Of a stretch of 64,000 bases of DNA, positions 54,700 to 62,621 are shown one piece after another (the first letter of the stretch is position 1; the number at the start of each line of letters is the position of its first letter). Position numbers and translations under genes: made by a program. The notes below the pieces were generated by a model. That model did not search any database. It had not been told where the DNA came from and worked only from the letters and a program-made list of their open reading frames with translations. Source of the stretch: Enterococcus pallens ATCC BAA-351 (GTDB taxonomy: Bacteria > Bacillota > Bacilli > Lactobacillales > Enterococcaceae); assembly GCF_000407485.1 (NCBI RefSeq), contig NZ_ASWD01000002.1:1054001-1118000 (forward strand), written 5' to 3'.

Positions 54700-54957
54700 A
54701 ATACGAGATGCCTCAAATCAATGAGGTAGAGGTCGCGAAGCTTATTAATCCTGTGGAGTGCAAGAGACATGAAGAAGCAGGTCTAGGAAGTTTCGCCGAA
54801 ATGTACAGAATTCTCTTTTTGTTCTGTATGTTGGGACGCAAGCGAATAACTTGCGGACTGTCTTAGCAGTGATGCTAAGTTGCGCTATGTTTTGTGAGAG
54901 GGACATCTTCTTATAGTTGCAAGCGGCCTTTGTTTTCTGGCGGCTTTTTTCTTTTTG
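54700..54957 (+). ncRNA. Lysine riboswitch (L-box) with terminator
   Basis: The leader contains GAGGTAGAGGTCGCG, GAAGCAGGT..GCCGAAATGTAC and GTTGGGACG in the order of the L-box aptamer, with base-paired P2-P4 arms (for example ACAGAAttctctttttgTTCTGT) and a closing P1 helix AGATG..CATCT. A terminator (AAGCgGCC/GGCgGCTT, T6) follows at 54921-54957. High lysine should terminate transcription before the transporter genes. The class fits the downstream amino-acid ABC transporter. Confidence 0.85.
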
Positions 54958-57387: not shown

Positions 57388-57428
57388 AAAAGGAGCTTGA
57401 TCATTTTGATCAGGCTCCTTTTTTTGCA
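57388..57428. terminator. Bidirectional terminator between transporter and channel genes
   Basis: AAAAGGAGC pairs with GCTCCTTTT, with inner GATC/GATC; seven T residues on the plus strand and four on the minus strand. Confidence 0.85.
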
Positions 57429-58009
57429 GGAAAAATTTTATGATAATACTCGTCGGCCTTTCGGTAAGACACTACCCACAAAGCAGATACTAAGAAGCGT
57501 CCCAGCATGCCAACTGCTGGATAGATGAACACTCCTACCAGTAGAATCAAATTAATAATCATTGATAAGCGGCTGCGCTTGTCTCGACTTAAAACCTTCA
57601 CAACGTGACTGTTCGCATCGTTGGCTTGAATCACTTTCTTTGAAAAGATGCCAAACGAAAAACTCCACATCCCATAAACGACAACATACGCCAATTCAGG
57701 CCAAAACTGATTGGGATTGCGTCCTACCCAGCTGGTGACAGCCGGACACAGGGTCAACCAAAACAGCCAGAAAATATTGGCCCAAATTACCCCATAATTA
57801 ATTTTTTCTGTCATTTGCATGACTCGATGGTGATTTACCCAAATCACCGCAACGAAAATGAAGCTGACCACATAGGCCAACAACGTGTTGAATATGCTGT
57901 AAAGCGAGGCAAACGTTGGTGGATCTGGAATCTGAATGTCCAGAACTAAGACGGTCAAAACAATCGCCACCACTCCATCGGTGAATGCCTCCAGCCTTGA
58001 TTTTGTCAT
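57410..58009 (-). CDS. TMEM175/DUF1211-like potassium channel protein
   Basis: ATG 58009 has AAGGTG upstream and begins MTKSRLEAFTDGVVAIVLTV, the R..F.DGV.AI selectivity motif of prokaryotic TMEM175 channels. The frame continues to 58057 without a better start. The 199-residue product has six membrane segments, the usual size for one TMEM175 unit. Its stop lies inside the shared terminator. Converges with the transporter operon. Confidence 0.8.
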   Translation of the reverse strand: MTKSRLEAFTDGVVAIVLTVLVLDIQIPDPPTFASLYSIFNTLLAYVVSFIFVAVIWVNHHRVMQMTEKINYGVIWANIFWLFWLTLCPAVTSWVGRNPNQFWPELAYVVVYGMWSFSFGIFSKKVIQANDANSHVVKVLSRDKRSRLSMIINLILLVGVFIYPAVGMLGRFLVSALWVVSYRKADEYYHKIFPAKKGA

Positions 58010-58175
58010 GTTTATCACCTTCAACCACAGCATACACGAAAAACTCATTTTCTGCATAAATTTGATCTTTTATCTGCCTCCGTATCTATAAACTGACAGT
58101 TTTTAACAAATAAAGTACAATGTAGACAAGTATCTGCCGAATTTCGGCCACCAAACTTGTAAAGGAGGAAATAAG

Positions 58176-59684
58176 ATGCTTTATGAAGAATTGATGTTTG
58201 ATTCATCGCTCCTTCTACGTTTTAAAATTTTCCATTATTTAAATCAATCCAGTATGCAAATCTTTCCCATCAGCCAATTATCTGATGAAATGGATTTGAA
58301 TTACCAGCAAACCGTCATTGAATTAACTGAAATTGACCAAGAATTAAAAGATATCCATCCAGAACACGAAAGTATTATGTTACGGGCCGGAAAGATTAAC
58401 TTAGAAAATATTTCTGCTACCCTTGATGAATATCGGTACCACTTATTGAAGCAATCAGTCCCTTTTCAATTTATTCTGTATTTTTTGAATGAAGAATCTC
58501 CAACGATTAAAAGTTTTTGCGATAAGTATTTTGTCAGCCGCTCTACTGTTTCTCGTAAAATTGATCGGTTGAAACGCTACTTAAAAACCTTCAATTTACG
58601 TTTTACTTACACGGAGGCAGGAATGTCTGGAGATGAACGTCTCATTCGAATTGCCCTTTTTGATATTTTATGGTTAGGAACTCGGGGGTTAGATTATCCG
58701 CTGAATGTTAATCAACAATTGGTGGATCAAGCGGTTGAAGCCTTTCAATCTTATTTTCCGCTGTCTCGTACATATTTTGGCGTACGGGAATTGCGTTTAT
58801 TCGCGGGAATTTCCTTAATACGTCTAAACAAACAACATTTTACTAAATACGATGCGCGCTACAATTTCTTAATGAAGGACAATCCTTATTATGATTTCGC
58901 TTCTCTCGGAAAATTAATTGACGTGCAGCTAACTACTAGACAATTAAAGGGTGAATCCAGCTTCATTTATTTTCTCGCTCATTATGCGCCGTTCTACACG
59001 ATTCGTGATGACAACAGCTTGAAACAAACCATTCATGATTTTGACGCTCGCCCGAATCCAGTGAATGACTTTGTCAATGAATTCCGCCGGTTTGGCAAAA
59101 AGACACTATTTCCAGATAAACCAGAAATTTTAGATGACCCATTGATTATTGGCAATCTGTTAAATATTACCTTTGCCTATTATGTTTTCCGTCAACCATT
59201 TCCAAATATCATGAGTATGGTACTGAAGTCAAATCAAGAACAGACCCAGGGCGAACATGTCTTGGAGCAAAATATTATGAGCTTTATGCAAACCGCCGGT
59301 GAAAATCCTGATTATCAGTTTATACGTTCTGTTCGTGTACTTTTAGGTAAATCCTTTAAGCATTTACTAATGCCTAGCTTCAATCAATTTCCTTATGCTC
59401 AGAATTTGAAGCTTGGTATCGCCATCGAACACAATGCTATGTTTGTTCGCGAGCTGTATCACTTTTTAGACGACCTGCGTTTTGTTCAAGCAGAGCCTTA
59501 TGACGCTTCCTTGAAGGAGGATTATGATTTAATCATCAGCTCCTCCACGCTGCTAAAAAATGAAAATTCAATGCTGCCAATCTATGTTCTCGATCATAAC
59601 TATAGAGAAAAAGAATTGATTCCTTTATATATGAAGCTGCGAGAAATTTATGGTCAAAAAAATCGCGCCAAATCAAAGGCGTAA
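58176..59684 (+). CDS. Mga-like transcriptional regulator
   Basis: The 502-residue protein has an N-terminal HTH (about 15-60), a second Mga HTH (about 85-150: SPTIKSFCDKYFVSRSTVSRKIDRLKRYLK), PRD-like helical regions (about 170-390) and a C-terminal EIIB-like part, as in Mga/AtxA virulence regulators. AGGAGG precedes the ATG. It lies directly upstream of the small-RNA array on the same strand; whether it controls the array is not known. Target and PTS link are open. Confidence 0.85.
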   Translation: MLYEELMFDSSLLLRFKIFHYLNQSSMQIFPISQLSDEMDLNYQQTVIELTEIDQELKDIHPEHESIMLRAGKINLENISATLDEYRYHLLKQSVPFQFILYFLNEESPTIKSFCDKYFVSRSTVSRKIDRLKRYLKTFNLRFTYTEAGMSGDERLIRIALFDILWLGTRGLDYPLNVNQQLVDQAVEAFQSYFPLSRTYFGVRELRLFAGISLIRLNKQHFTKYDARYNFLMKDNPYYDFASLGKLIDVQLTTRQLKGESSFIYFLAHYAPFYTIRDDNSLKQTIHDFDARPNPVNDFVNEFRRFGKKTLFPDKPEILDDPLIIGNLLNITFAYYVFRQPFPNIMSMVLKSNQEQTQGEHVLEQNIMSFMQTAGENPDYQFIRSVRVLLGKSFKHLLMPSFNQFPYAQNLKLGIAIEHNAMFVRELYHFLDDLRFVQAEPYDASLKEDYDLIISSSTLLKNENSMLPIYVLDHNYREKELIPLYMKLREIYGQKNRAKSKA

Positions 59685-59722: not shown

Positions 59723-59776
59723 TTCATCGATTTCCTATTCTTTGATCATAGTTCTGTCACATTTAGCTTGTATTAT
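59723..59776 (+). promoter_or_regulatory. Phased operator and promoter of sRNA copy 1
   Basis: Hexamers TTCATC, CCTATT, ATCATA and GTCACA start at 59723, 59734, 59745 and 59756, exactly 11 bp apart. TATTAT at 59771 is the -10 box. This copy has the most degenerate hexamers. Confidence 0.6.
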
Positions 59777-59782
59777 ATAAGC

Positions 59783-59860
59783 ATACCAACAAACAACCCT
59801 AACACTTTTTCATTTTTTAACTCCTTGCCTGCCGGCCACCCACCGGCAGGCTTTCTTTTT
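59783..59860 (+). ncRNA. Small RNA, copy 1 of 5
   Basis: A transcript of about 78 nt is inferred. The unpaired part contains ACCAACAAACAACCCTAACA, a T-rich stretch and AACTCCTT. The terminator stem is GCCTGCCGG/CCGGCAGGC with loop CCACCCA, followed by TTTCTTTTT. No reading frame is conserved between copies. See copies 2-5 for the covarying stems. Confidence 0.8.
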
Positions 59861-59861
59861 A

Positions 59862-59959
59862 CCAGTCCAACTTTTCGCAGTTTTGTATGGAGCGAAAATA
59901 ATTTAGTAATTAAACAGCTATGCATTGGCCGTGCTGTTTAGTTGGATGGTATGCGTACG
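59862..59959 (+). repeat. Dumbbell repeat R1
   Basis: Flanks CCAGTCCAACT and AGTTGGATGG pair; the unit ends in CGTACG. It directly follows sRNA copy 1. The roughly 55-base centre is unique to this copy. Confidence 0.65.
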
Positions 59960-60016
59960 AAAATAAAACTCATTTTTCATGTTCTTAGAAAAATGATTCC
60001 CTTACTTGTGAGTTAG

Positions 60017-60116
60017 CTGCCAGTCCAACTTTTCGCAGCTATATTTAGTAAAAAATCCTTTATCAACATTTACACAAGTCGATTGTTCAACCTGTTTAGT
60101 TGGATAATCGCGTACG
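60017..60116 (+). repeat. Dumbbell repeat R2
   Basis: Flanks CTGCCAGTCCAACT and AGTTGGAT, end CGTACG, with a different centre. A conserved 30-base spacer (GAAAAATGATTCCCTTAC..) precedes it, as before R4 and R5. The stretch 60117-60274 holds nothing recognised. Confidence 0.65.
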
Positions 60117-60274
60117 AAACTCTTTTCTCTGCGGTTTATTGATCCAATAGAAAAAATCAATTTAAACTTATTTGATAGTTTTTTTTGACTGTCTATTTGA
60201 TATTGAGTTTATTTTTTAGCAATCTTAGTGAAATTGAGTTTCCGAAAGTCTTATATGGATAATTTTTTTCAACT

Positions 60275-60328
60275 TTTATAGTTTTCCAATACTTCGTTCA
60301 CAGTTCTTTCACATTTTTCTTGTACTAT
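60275..60328 (+). promoter_or_regulatory. Phased operator and promoter of sRNA copy 2
   Basis: TTTATA, CCAATA, TTCACA and TTCACA start at 60275, 60286, 60297 and 60308. -10 box TACTAT at 60323. No TTGACA is present at -35, so an activator is expected. Confidence 0.65.
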
Positions 60329-60334
60329 ATATGT

Positions 60335-60411
60335 ATACCAACAAACAACCCTAACACTTTTTCATTTTTAACTCCTTGCCTGTCGGCCACCCACCGACAG
60401 GCTATTTTTTT
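60335..60411 (+). ncRNA. Small RNA, copy 2 of 5
   Basis: Same unpaired region as copy 1. Terminator stem GCCTGTCGG/CCGACAGGC: one C-G pair of copy 1 has become T-A in both arms. The loop CCACCCA is unchanged. Confidence 0.8.
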
Positions 60412-60507
60412 GATAAAAATAAAATAAGAAATTAATACTGAAGGAATTACTTGCAGTTTGAAAGATTTAATCATAGATTGAAAAGTATTCAAAATAGTCT
60501 TTCAGAT

Positions 60508-60561
60508 TTTACAGTTTTCCAACACTCCATTCATAGTTCTTTCACAACTTGCTTGTATTAT
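60508..60561 (+). promoter_or_regulatory. Phased operator and promoter of sRNA copy 3
   Basis: TTTACA, CCAACA, TTCATA and TTCACA start at 60508, 60519, 60530 and 60541. -10 box TATTAT at 60556. Confidence 0.65.
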
Positions 60562-60567
60562 ATAGGT

Positions 60568-60644
60568 ATACCAACAAACAACCCTAACACTTTTTCATTT
60601 TTAACTCCTTGCCTGTCGGCCACCCACCGACAGGCTATTTTTTT
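60568..60644 (+). ncRNA. Small RNA, copy 3 of 5
   Basis: Identical core to copy 2, including stem GCCTGTCGG/CCGACAGGC. Copies 2-4 sit in a 225-230 bp tandem unit whose flanks (GAAGGAATTACTTGCAGTTT) are also repeated. Confidence 0.8.
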
Positions 60645-60741
60645 GATAAAAAATAAAAGAAGAAATTAGTACCGAAGGAATTACTTGCAGTTTGAAGGAT
60701 TTAATCATAGATTGAAAAGTATTCAAAATAGTCTTTCAGGT

Positions 60742-60795
60742 TTTACAGTTTTCCAACACTTCATTCATAGTTCTTTCACAACTTGTTTGTATTAT
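60742..60795 (+). promoter_or_regulatory. Phased operator and promoter of sRNA copy 4
   Basis: TTTACA, CCAACA, TTCATA and TTCACA start at 60742, 60753, 60764 and 60775. -10 box TATTAT at 60790. Confidence 0.65.
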
Positions 60796-60801
60796 ATAGG
60801 T

Positions 60802-60876
60802 ATACCAACAAACAACCCTAACACTTTTTCATTTTTAACTCCTTGCCTGTCAGCCACCCACTGACAGGCTATTTTT
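60802..60876 (+). ncRNA. Small RNA, copy 4 of 5
   Basis: Stem GCCTGTCAG/CTGACAGGC: a further G-to-A change is matched by C-to-T in the other arm. Everything else is as in copy 3. Confidence 0.8.
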
Positions 60877-60923
60877 ATCTAATTTTTTAGGCAATTCTAA
60901 AGTTTTCCTTGCCTATACGATTT

Positions 60924-60977
60924 TTCAACGTTTGTCAAGACTAAATTCATGACTTATTCACATTTTTCTTGTAGTAT
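60924..60977 (+). promoter_or_regulatory. Phased operator and promoter of sRNA copy 5
   Basis: TTCAAC, TCAAGA, TTCATG and TTCACA start at 60924, 60935, 60946 and 60957. -10 box TAGTAT at 60972. Phase is kept although the sequence has diverged. Confidence 0.6.
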
Positions 60978-60983
60978 ATAAGC

Positions 60984-61063
60984 ATACCAACAAACAACCC
61001 TAACACTTTTTCATTTTTTTAACTCCTTTTCCCGTCGGCCACCCACCGACGGGTTCTTTTTTT
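60984..61063 (+). ncRNA. Small RNA, copy 5 of 5
   Basis: The most diverged copy. Stem CCCGTCGG/CCGACGGG again keeps pairing, with unchanged loop CCACCCA. The unpaired part with CCAACAAACAACCCTAACA and AACTCCTT is conserved. Confidence 0.8.
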
Positions 61064-61160
61064 GCCAGTCTAACTTTGCGCAGTTCATTTAGTTCGAGCA
61101 AAAACCTGTGATGATTCACAAATTTACGCTCGTGCTGTTTAGTTAGATGGTAGGCGTACG
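61064..61160 (+). repeat. Dumbbell repeat R3
   Basis: Flanks GCCAGTCTAACT and AGTTAGATGG, end CGTACG. The centre has its own hairpins CGAGC/GCTCG and TGTGA/TCACA and is identical to that of R5. Confidence 0.65.
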
Positions 61161-61216
61161 AAAATCATTTTATTTTTCGTGCTCTTCGAAAAATGATTCC
61201 CTTATTCATGAGGTAG

Positions 61217-61315
61217 CTGCCAGTCTAACTTTGCGCAGATTATCCAGCTCGAAAGAAATTTAAAAGTTATCCTCATGTTTATATACATACTGTTTAGTTA
61301 GATGGTAGGCGTACG
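61217..61315 (+). repeat. Dumbbell repeat R4
   Basis: Flanks CTGCCAGTCTAACT and AGTTAGATGGTAG, end CGTACG. The centre differs from all other copies. It lies about 155 bp from R3 and R5. Confidence 0.65.
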
Positions 61316-61371
61316 AAAATTTTTTCATTTTTCGTGCTCTTCTAAAAATGATTCCCTTACTTGTGAGTTAG

Positions 61372-61470
61372 CTGCCAGTCTAACTTTTCGCAATTCATTT
61401 AGTTCGAGCAAAAACCTGTGATGATTCACAAATTTACGCTCGTGCTGTTTAGTTAGATGGTAGACGTACG
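61372..61470 (+). repeat. Dumbbell repeat R5
   Basis: Flanks as R3 and R4 and centre as R3. A partial further copy (TAGCTGCCAAC) begins at 61497. Confidence 0.65.
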
Positions 61471-61530
61471 AAAATGTTCTTCTTTCCTATACTAGGTAGC
61501 TGCCAACCTACAATTCAAAGTCTTTATCAA

Positions 61531-61618: not shown

Positions 61619-62587
61619 CTATTTTTTCGTTTCGAATAATGGGCTGACTGGTTTGTTTTCATGGATACGTTTGATTGCATCCCCCATTAATTCACCAACA
61701 CTGATTTCATCAATTTTGTCGATTTTGCGATCATCTGACAAGTAGATTGAATCAGTAACTACTAAATGCTCAATTGCAGAGTCTTGGATACGTTGCATTG
61801 CTGGACCTGATAAAACCGGATGCGTACAAGATGCATAGACTTGTTTTGCTCCTGCTTCTTTTAAAGCATTGGCTGCTAGGGTAATGGTACCTGCAGTATC
61901 GATCATATCATCAATAATCACACAAGTTTTACCATCAACATTTCCGATGATATTCATTACTTCAGCTACATTGGCTTTTGGTCGGCGTTTGTCGATAATC
62001 GCAATTGGTGCCTTCAAAAACTCAGCCAGCTTACGCGCACGGGTTACACCGCCGTGGTCAGGAGAGACAACAACTACATCATCGCCGCAAACCCCTTGTT
62101 CAACAAAGTAATTAGCGATTAAAGGTGCCCCCATTAAATGGTCCACTGGAATATCAAAGAATCCTTGGATCTGTGAGGCATGCAAATCTAAGGTTAACAG
62201 GCGCGTTGCTCCTGCTTTTTGGATCATGTTAGCGACTAATTTCGCTGTAATCGGTTCACGAGCACGAGCTTTTCGATCTTGACGTGCATAGCCATAATAA
62301 GGCATTACTACGTTAATAGTTTTTGCACTTGCACGTTTTAGGGCATCAATCATGATTAATAGTTCCATCAAATTATCATTTACCGGACTACTGGTTGACT
62401 GAATAACATAGACATGCGCACCACGAATACTTTCCTCGATGTTCACCTGAATTTCGCCATCGCTAAATTGTGTGACTGAGCTTTTTCCTAATTGCACACC
62501 TACAGCTTCAGCAATTTTTTCTGCTAACGGACGATTCGAGTTCAAGGCAAAGATTTTCAATCTTGGATCAAAATACTGTTTTGACAT
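61619..62587 (-). CDS. prs: Ribose-phosphate pyrophosphokinase
   Basis: ATG 62587 has GGAGGG four bases upstream; a frame four codons longer is less likely. The 322-residue enzyme makes PRPP from ribose 5-phosphate and ATP for nucleotide synthesis. [32 protein letters not shown] (ATP loop), VVVSPDHGG and the PRPP-binding [14 protein letters not shown] are all intact. It follows glmU in the same direction, the usual order in Bacilli, but has its own promoter. Confidence 0.97.
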
Positions 62588-62621
62588 GGGTCCCTCCACT
62601 TTCTTTTTGCATACGTTACCG

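Follow-up and report, generated by a model that had tools for sequence, protein, structure and literature searches.

A multicopy small RNA gene family of the Enterococcaceae with a segment complementary to translation starts and a promoter site shared with a PieRS-like two-component locus

Five short units, each ending in a hairpin, stand close together in the genome of Enterococcus pallens, and they raise the question of whether they are genes for small RNAs and, if so, what they might act on and what might switch them on. They lie in the window analyzed here, a stretch of 64,000 nucleotides from E. pallens ATCC BAA-351 (NZ_ASWD01000002.1, positions 1,054,001 to 1,118,000), between a gene for a Mga-type regulator (window positions 58176-59684; Pfam Mga) and a ribose-phosphate diphosphokinase gene (61619-62599, minus strand). 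The original prediction described five small RNA (sRNA) units with a common promoter, an unpaired segment and a hairpin, and all of these elements were found where it had placed them. The units measure about 78 nt and are all on the plus strand; each runs from its promoter through some 45 unpaired and almost invariant nucleotides to an intrinsic terminator.

Copy 1 (59781..59860; stem GCCTGCCGG/CCGGCAGGC; 106.5 bits with model R1) follows the promoter ATCATA-N5-GTCACA-N9-TATTAT at 59745..59779, which scores 31.6 bits with the promoter matrix (PWM). Copies 2 and 3, at 60333..60411 and 60566..60644, share the stem GCCTGTCGG/CCGACAGGC and the R1 score (111.3 bits each), and their promoters read TTCACA-N5-TTCACA-N9-TACTAT (60297..60331, PWM 34.4 bits) and TTCATA-N5-TTCACA-N9-TATTAT (60530..60564, 33.5 bits). 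The latter pattern recurs before copy 4 (promoter 60764..60798, PWM 33.2 bits; sRNA 60800..60877, stem GCCTGTCAG/CTGACAGGC, R1 108.3 bits), while copy 5 (60982..61062, stem CCCGTCGG/CCGACGGG, R1 99.7 bits) is preceded by TTCATG-N5-TTCACA-N9-TAGTAT at 60946..60980 (PWM 28.7 bits). All of these features lie on the plus strand. The 100 nt upstream of the other copies are 76-84% identical to those of copy 1. Copies 2-4 form a set of tandem duplicates with a spacing of 233-234 bp, and over 234 nt copy 3 shows 94% identity with copy 4. The unpaired stretch of the window copies varies only at its second base, in the length of one T-run and at the bases adjacent to the hairpin.

The hairpin consists of an 8-9 bp stem, the loop CCACCCA and a following run of T residues. 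It is the sole fold in 5/5 window copies, with folding energies of -15.1 to -19.6 kcal/mol and no equally stable sequence among 200 shuffles; its stem arms and 7-nt loop had been read correctly in the original prediction. Among the eight E. pallens copies (see below), two-sided changes were found in 4 of the 9 stem pairs; copy 5 has lost one pair. The family-wide alignment held 150 matches, the 10 weakest of 160 having been left out beforehand, and 121 of them are distinct. Over these 121 sequences the stems stay paired in related genomes, with 97.5% of cells pairing compared with 75.9% in shuffles (0/500 as high). Two-sided cells numbered 280 compared with 61.9 in shuffles (0/500 as high) and were seen in 9/9 stem pairs, a spread that 24/500 shuffles equalled, and when the pairing was offset by 1-3 columns the paired cells fell to 25-46%. 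Variation in the family is found in the stem, and conservation in the unpaired 5' stretch. The paired changes had been read as selection on RNA structure; the pairing is indeed kept, but every intrinsic terminator must pair, so that stem covariation alone indicates a real transcript end and not a function.

The family is larger than the five copies first counted. The E. pallens genome (5.44 Mb, 13 contigs) holds eight, with three extra copies at C2:830755, C2:1048499 and C1:777103, and the unit also occurs beyond this genome. As had been proposed, a covariance model was built from the copies, here all eight from E. pallens, and run against relatives. It matched 19/20 genomes of the genus and 103 of 105 Enterococcaceae genomes from 17/17 genera, at 1-13 copies each; genome G008 gave no model match, although the regulator discussed below is present there. 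An exact core 25-mer was found in 36 stretches, every record being titled Enterococcus (including avium, raffinosus, malodoratus, casseliflavus, gallinarum and asini). When 395 genomes of the order outside the Enterococcaceae were covered, 9 matched (E 3.7e-8 to 5.9e-4, 1-6 copies), all from six genera of one other family (f8). Among 72,556 plasmid records, 11 matched the query, 8 from E. faecium and 3 from Vagococcus fluvialis. A tandem pair of members lies on the E. faecium plasmid NZ_CP065768.1, typed as conjugative (locus L357, 2839-2908 and 3011-3084). The query also matched three records without annotation that are listed as Enterococcus phage (OR846601.1, OR846615.1, PQ520085.1); one of them, OR846601.1, may be bacterial DNA, as its member has exactly the score of copy L090 of genome G020. 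G020 is presumably E. faecalis, given that Ref84, an Enterococcus sRNA considered below, scores 112.6 bits there, and G025 appears to be E. faecium-like. Promoter scanning also led to more divergent members, namely L191 (G020 C1:2228931, minus strand), which has two anti-Shine-Dalgarno segments and scores 33.9 bits with R1, and L206 (G096 C3:436223, minus strand).

The antisense of the invariant stretch reads AAGGAG-TTAAAA-ATG-AAA-AAG-TG, that is, a Shine-Dalgarno sequence, a spacer, a start codon and two lysine codons, suggesting that the RNA probably pairs with translation starts. CTCC is present in 150/150 matches, and the order CTTTT-CAT-CTCC in 146/150. Reading frames of exported proteins often start with Met-Lys-Lys. 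The stretch, exemplified by 60570..60610 (plus strand) in copy 3, was the input to a pairing test against 670 called gene starts in 864 kb of the E. pallens genome, classed by a simple hydrophobicity rule. Secreted-type starts (n = 82) paired more strongly than cytosolic ones (n = 473; p = 4.8e-7), and energies below -16 kcal/mol were reached by 20% of secreted-type, 16% of membrane-type (n = 115) and 8% of cytosolic starts. The median gap between secreted-type and cytosolic starts was -1.9 kcal/mol, a moderate preference that depends on our own gene calls. When four genomes were searched with a pattern for such starts, 17 matches were obtained, compared with 2 for the reversed control; sRNA genes of the family itself make up 9 of the 17. 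The other eight comprise three starts of signal-peptide proteins (one each in E. pallens, G020 and G025), two starts of cytosolic-looking enzymes, one 68-aa frame and two non-starts. With the sRNA of the same species, the three signal-peptide starts paired at -26.7 (E. pallens), -17.5 (G020) and -27.3 kcal/mol (G025), whereas letter-shuffled sRNAs averaged -11.9, -7.5 and -17.0 kcal/mol, respectively; at the G020 candidate, the strongest of 200 letter shuffles reached -20.1 kcal/mol and so outpaired the real sRNA.

The complementarity might be explained in other ways. The conserved stretch may act on one or a few mRNAs, or bind a protein or the ribosome, and its resemblance to an antisense of starts would then be a by-product of a C-rich, G-poor sequence. 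Conservation does reach well past CTCC and CAT, beyond what a general anti-start action would need. However, the real stretch outpaired 59 of 60 dinucleotide shuffles at gene starts, the remaining one pairing equally well overall, and just two of the 60 matched the secreted gap; the eight matches outside sRNA genes, three of them at signal-peptide genes, likewise exceed the two of the reversed control. This explanation is considered unlikely. It is very improbable that the stretch serves instead as the ribosome-binding site and start codon of a small protein or leader peptide on the minus strand. That strand does read AAGGAG-TTAAAA-ATG-AAA-AAG, but the frame varies across 110 distinct rows, stopping after 4 codons in 77, after 5 in 7, after 3 in 1 and after 12 in 1, and staying open to the unit end in 24. 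This agrees with the earlier observation that no reading frame is kept, and it is the plus strand that has the conserved promoter as well as the run of T residues behind the hairpin. The tandem duplication of copies 2-4 and the occurrence of copies on plasmids would suit a non-transcribed repeat or a mobile terminator-like element spreading by duplication. We give this idea very little credit, since the promoter is conserved like the body and its spacing is kept across genera, at copy numbers of 1-13.

The promoters offer a clue to the control of the family. Their consensus over 49 non-redundant sequences is TTCAYA-N5-TTCAYA-N9-TATNNT, with the repeats 11 bp apart and covering the place of the -35 element; to obtain this set, 14 of 150 rows and then near-duplicates were dropped, and 7 of the 49 score 12 or less against the pattern. 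Double direct repeats across the -35 element are the promoter layout of OmpR-type response regulators. The CiaR promoter has been quoted as an example of this type (PMC8186281). When the repeats were surveyed across genera (13 of 150 rows dropped as duplicates or because fewer than 90 nt lay upstream, and a further 6 for want of an anchor), some copies in genera g8 and g14 were found to carry TTTATG- or CTTAGG-N5-TTAAG-like repeats in place of TTCAYA, and these variants resemble the CiaR site as quoted in PMC8186281. At loci L094 and L110 (g8) and L079 (g14), members carry TTTAAG-like (CiaR-like) repeats with unchanged spacing, as if their control had been rewired. A promoter matrix was trained solely on sRNA promoters, those scoring below 13 being dropped before building. 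At 13 bits it found six places in 864 kb of the E. pallens genome, the five window copies and one other, compared with 1-2 in shuffles. The other place, L146 (C1:108831, minus strand, 17.5 bits), lies between genes; a hairpin and T-run come after it, and it perhaps marks another small RNA. When mismatches were allowed across the whole genome, 38 places had at most three (27 in the control), and the 14 places with at most two include all eight sRNA promoters.

One of the six other sites with at most two mismatches precedes a membrane-protein gene, which itself follows a sulfatase-family gene, presumably ltaS-like. The same order, with the site, was also found in three further genera, and the same two-component system adjoins the membrane-protein gene in all four discovery genomes. 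Its best NCBIfam matches are PieR (317.8 bits, cut-off 450) and PieS (426.4 bits, cut-off 850), both below cut-off, followed by families at 217.8 and 240.8 bits. The PieR-like regulator is present in 103/105 genomes, and in 98/98 good genomes, at 77-100% identity. In 39 PieRS-like loci from 39 genomes, the four discovery loci and 35 more, the matrix at 15.5 bits gave 27 matches compared with 0.0 in shuffles. These fell in 26 loci; the membrane-protein gene begins 6-56 nt downstream of the site in 25 of them and just downstream in the 26th. Of the remaining 13 loci, 10 have the gene, with a weaker site of 5.0-15.1 bits in 9 and none in 1; for comparison, 3000 random stretches had a 99th percentile of 2.0 and a maximum of 10.0 bits. 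With the weaker sites counted, the site accompanies the gene in 35/36 loci having it (31/32 without the four discovery loci), three of the 39 being left out as the gene is absent from the stretch covered. Genome G008 has a weak site at this gene as well (10.7 bits, L275).

The membrane protein has no match in Pfam or NCBIfam, and the next gene has weak ABC-ATPase matches. In Listeria, the PieRS regulon is described as including the chaperones PrsA1 and PrsA2 together with Lmo1505 and Lmo1506, predicted to be an ABC transporter and its permease (PMC12234432). The PrsA part of this regulon does not carry over: upstream of prsA, in Listeria the chief target of PieRS, the coding strand had no site of at least 8 bits in 8/8 genomes, and the other strand had two weak ones (8.4 and 9.6 bits). 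No site with 0 or 1 mismatch was found at 30 PieR-like regulator loci themselves. As judged from the shared site, the conserved PieR-like protein is the most likely candidate for the regulator of the sRNA promoters.

A different OmpR-type regulator might drive the same sRNAs with the same anti-start action, whether a PhoP-like protein, the second two-component system of the genus at C3:729309, or several regulators in turn; we regard this as rather unlikely. TTCACA-type direct repeats resemble the PhoP boxes of Gram-positive bacteria, and the variant repeats in g8 and g14 suggest that control can change. Moreover, the site stands before the regulator gene of the second system in 19/19 genus loci, with no mismatch in 13, one in 5 and two in 1, and with matrix scores of 5.4-14.2 bits. 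Yet that system was found in just 52/105 genomes at E 1e-45, G020, whose sRNAs have the site, not being among them, and the CroR motif as printed in PMC9426447, TTTATTAA, differs. It was the first system to be found through the site, and was rejected as a universal regulator on the strength of the 52/105 count. Within the genus it could still share or contest the control of the sRNAs. In E. pallens, the site occurs before a response regulator/kinase pair (L135, C3:729250) and again after the pair, before a small unknown gene (L141, C3:731046).

The computed features, namely the genes, the promoter architecture, the terminator, the conservation, the complementarity and the site shared with the PieRS-like locus, are together best read as a multicopy anti-start sRNA driven by a PieR-like regulator and favoring exported-protein genes, a reading that we hold to be probable. 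Each unit would be transcribed as a free-standing gene for a trans-acting sRNA of about 78 nt that ends at the intrinsic terminator. An OmpR-type response regulator would bind the two direct TTCAYA repeats spanning the -35 element and turn the promoter on; the PieR-like protein, whose own neighboring membrane-protein gene has the same site, is the candidate for this role. The unpaired 5' stretch would then bind mRNAs at translation starts (AAGGAG, spacer, AUG, AAA AAG), exclude ribosomes and so repress translation, the preferred targets being exported-protein genes with AAGGAG...AUGAAAAA starts, and the multiple copies would provide an additive dose. A further step, which we offer as a possibility more doubtful than not, is that the family might act as a brake under export stress. 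One PieRS-like system would drive up to 13 sRNA copies, and a generic antisense of Met-Lys-Lys starts would throttle many exported proteins, limiting export load by targeting a protein class and not gene by gene, while Ref84 with its ordinary promoter would set the resting level.

Judged by sequence, the nearest relative of the family is Ref84 (Rfam RF02846, Enterococcus sRNA 84), a distant sister. The sequence had not been recognized in the original prediction, and Ref84 was missed there: its model aligns over the full length of each of the five units at 26.7-38.8 bits, with copy 5 highest at 38.8, below the cut-off of 52. Conversely, model R1 matched 7/7 tested Ref84 genes end to end, weakly (18.4-25.0 bits). 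The likeness extends to the 5' start ACCAACAACAACC, the anti-AUG and anti-Shine-Dalgarno segments and the terminator, and the end-to-end matches in both directions show that the units follow the body plan of Ref84 (ACCAACAA start, anti-AUG, anti-Shine-Dalgarno, terminator). Ref84 is above cut-off in 70/105 genomes, and in G020 and the 11 genus members listing both, the over-cut-off gene sits elsewhere than the R1 copies. Its promoters also differ: among 15 sampled genes, one of them without a readable core, 14/14 readable promoters have TAGACA or TGGACA 17 bp before the -10 element and no double repeat, whereas the window copies have one; the sRNA-promoter PWM scores the Ref84 promoters at -16.9 to -1.5. 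Given the separate location and the ordinary promoter, Ref84 and the present family look like two arms of a single superfamily, one with a housekeeping-type promoter and the other multicopy and controlled by a response regulator. A search for the word Ref84 in the literature returned unrelated uses only.

By mode of action, the closest analogues would be the csRNAs of streptococci and LhrC of Listeria, and the comparison drawn with them in the original prediction is supported by the computed evidence, although the family is a member of neither. The CiaR-dependent csRNAs (RF02379) are likewise described as multicopy genes with direct repeats of 11-bp period, a spaced -10 element and unpaired anti-Shine-Dalgarno and anti-AUG segments (PMC3091779, PMC8186281), and the conserved order of CAT and CTCC noted above gives the present sRNAs this last trait. 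However, the CiaR repeat is TTTAAG-N5-TTTAAG (PMC8186281) and not TTCAYA-N5-TTCAYA, the csRNAs have two hairpins where 5/5 window copies have the terminator hairpin alone, and the csRNA model reached 23.1 bits, on copy 4 only, with a cut-off of 57. LisR-dependent LhrC (RF00616) is similar in its multiple copies, two-component control, CU-rich anti-Shine-Dalgarno segments and surface-protein targets (PMC4132741, PMC7602753). It differs in that the sRNAs here have one hairpin and lack the three-fold UCCC motif, and its model gave 20.9 bits, on copy 5 only (cut-off 110). The LisR consensus was not known, according to PMC4132741.

Some members have probably been listed already among the uncharacterized sRNAs of E. 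faecalis and E. faecium. The E. faecalis sRNA_112 and E. faecium sRNA_005 are reported to be about 81% identical, with the first 50 nt highly conserved, to have predicted targets including lipoproteins and ABC transporters, and to form one conserved pair of unknown function (PMC7724050). Sections 24-26 of that account say nothing of copy number, of a promoter site in common or of a regulator. Matched by description and not by letters, the two are very probably members of the family, in which case two members have already been seen as transcripts. The same paper likens the pair sRNA_109/sRNA_093 to Rfam sRNA_084 (PMC7724050), which is probably Ref84. Ern0160 was considered and rejected, its pairing region being reported inside reading frames (PMC12870237).

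No report of the family, the shared promoter site or the regulator link was found in the literature, supplements aside, and the family is thus a new, Enterococcaceae-wide sRNA family of a kind already known. With it, the Enterococcaceae have a counterpart of the csRNAs and LhrC, and so do the two main clinical species if G020 and G025 are named as presumed above. A single regulator is predicted for sRNAs that were probably listed as separate unknowns, and the translation starts of many exported-protein genes are a plausible target class. Enterococci are reported to lack Hfq (PMC10117718, PMC3091779).

Several other features of these loci are worth recording. Against the Rfam gathering cut-offs, 12 sRNA loci yielded nothing but a T-box, and the window yielded a lysine riboswitch alone. 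The riboswitch, at 54719-54895 (88.2 bits), lies upstream of a gene predicted to encode an amino-acid ABC transporter. A homologue of the TMEM175-type potassium channel is encoded at 57410-58057 on the minus strand (Pfam, 96.7 bits). In addition, a second repeat family of five units of about 110 nt (59862-59972, 60014-60122, 61062-61174, 61214-61329 and 61369-61484) interleaves with the sRNA array and then continues past it. A single two-sided change was seen among the 18 predicted pairs of these repeats, with no net covariation support, and one stretch of them matches Rfam sRNA_2410 weakly on the minus strand (20 bits, cut-off 61). Their ends, CCAGTCYAAC and GTTRGATGG, are conserved and able to form a long stem.
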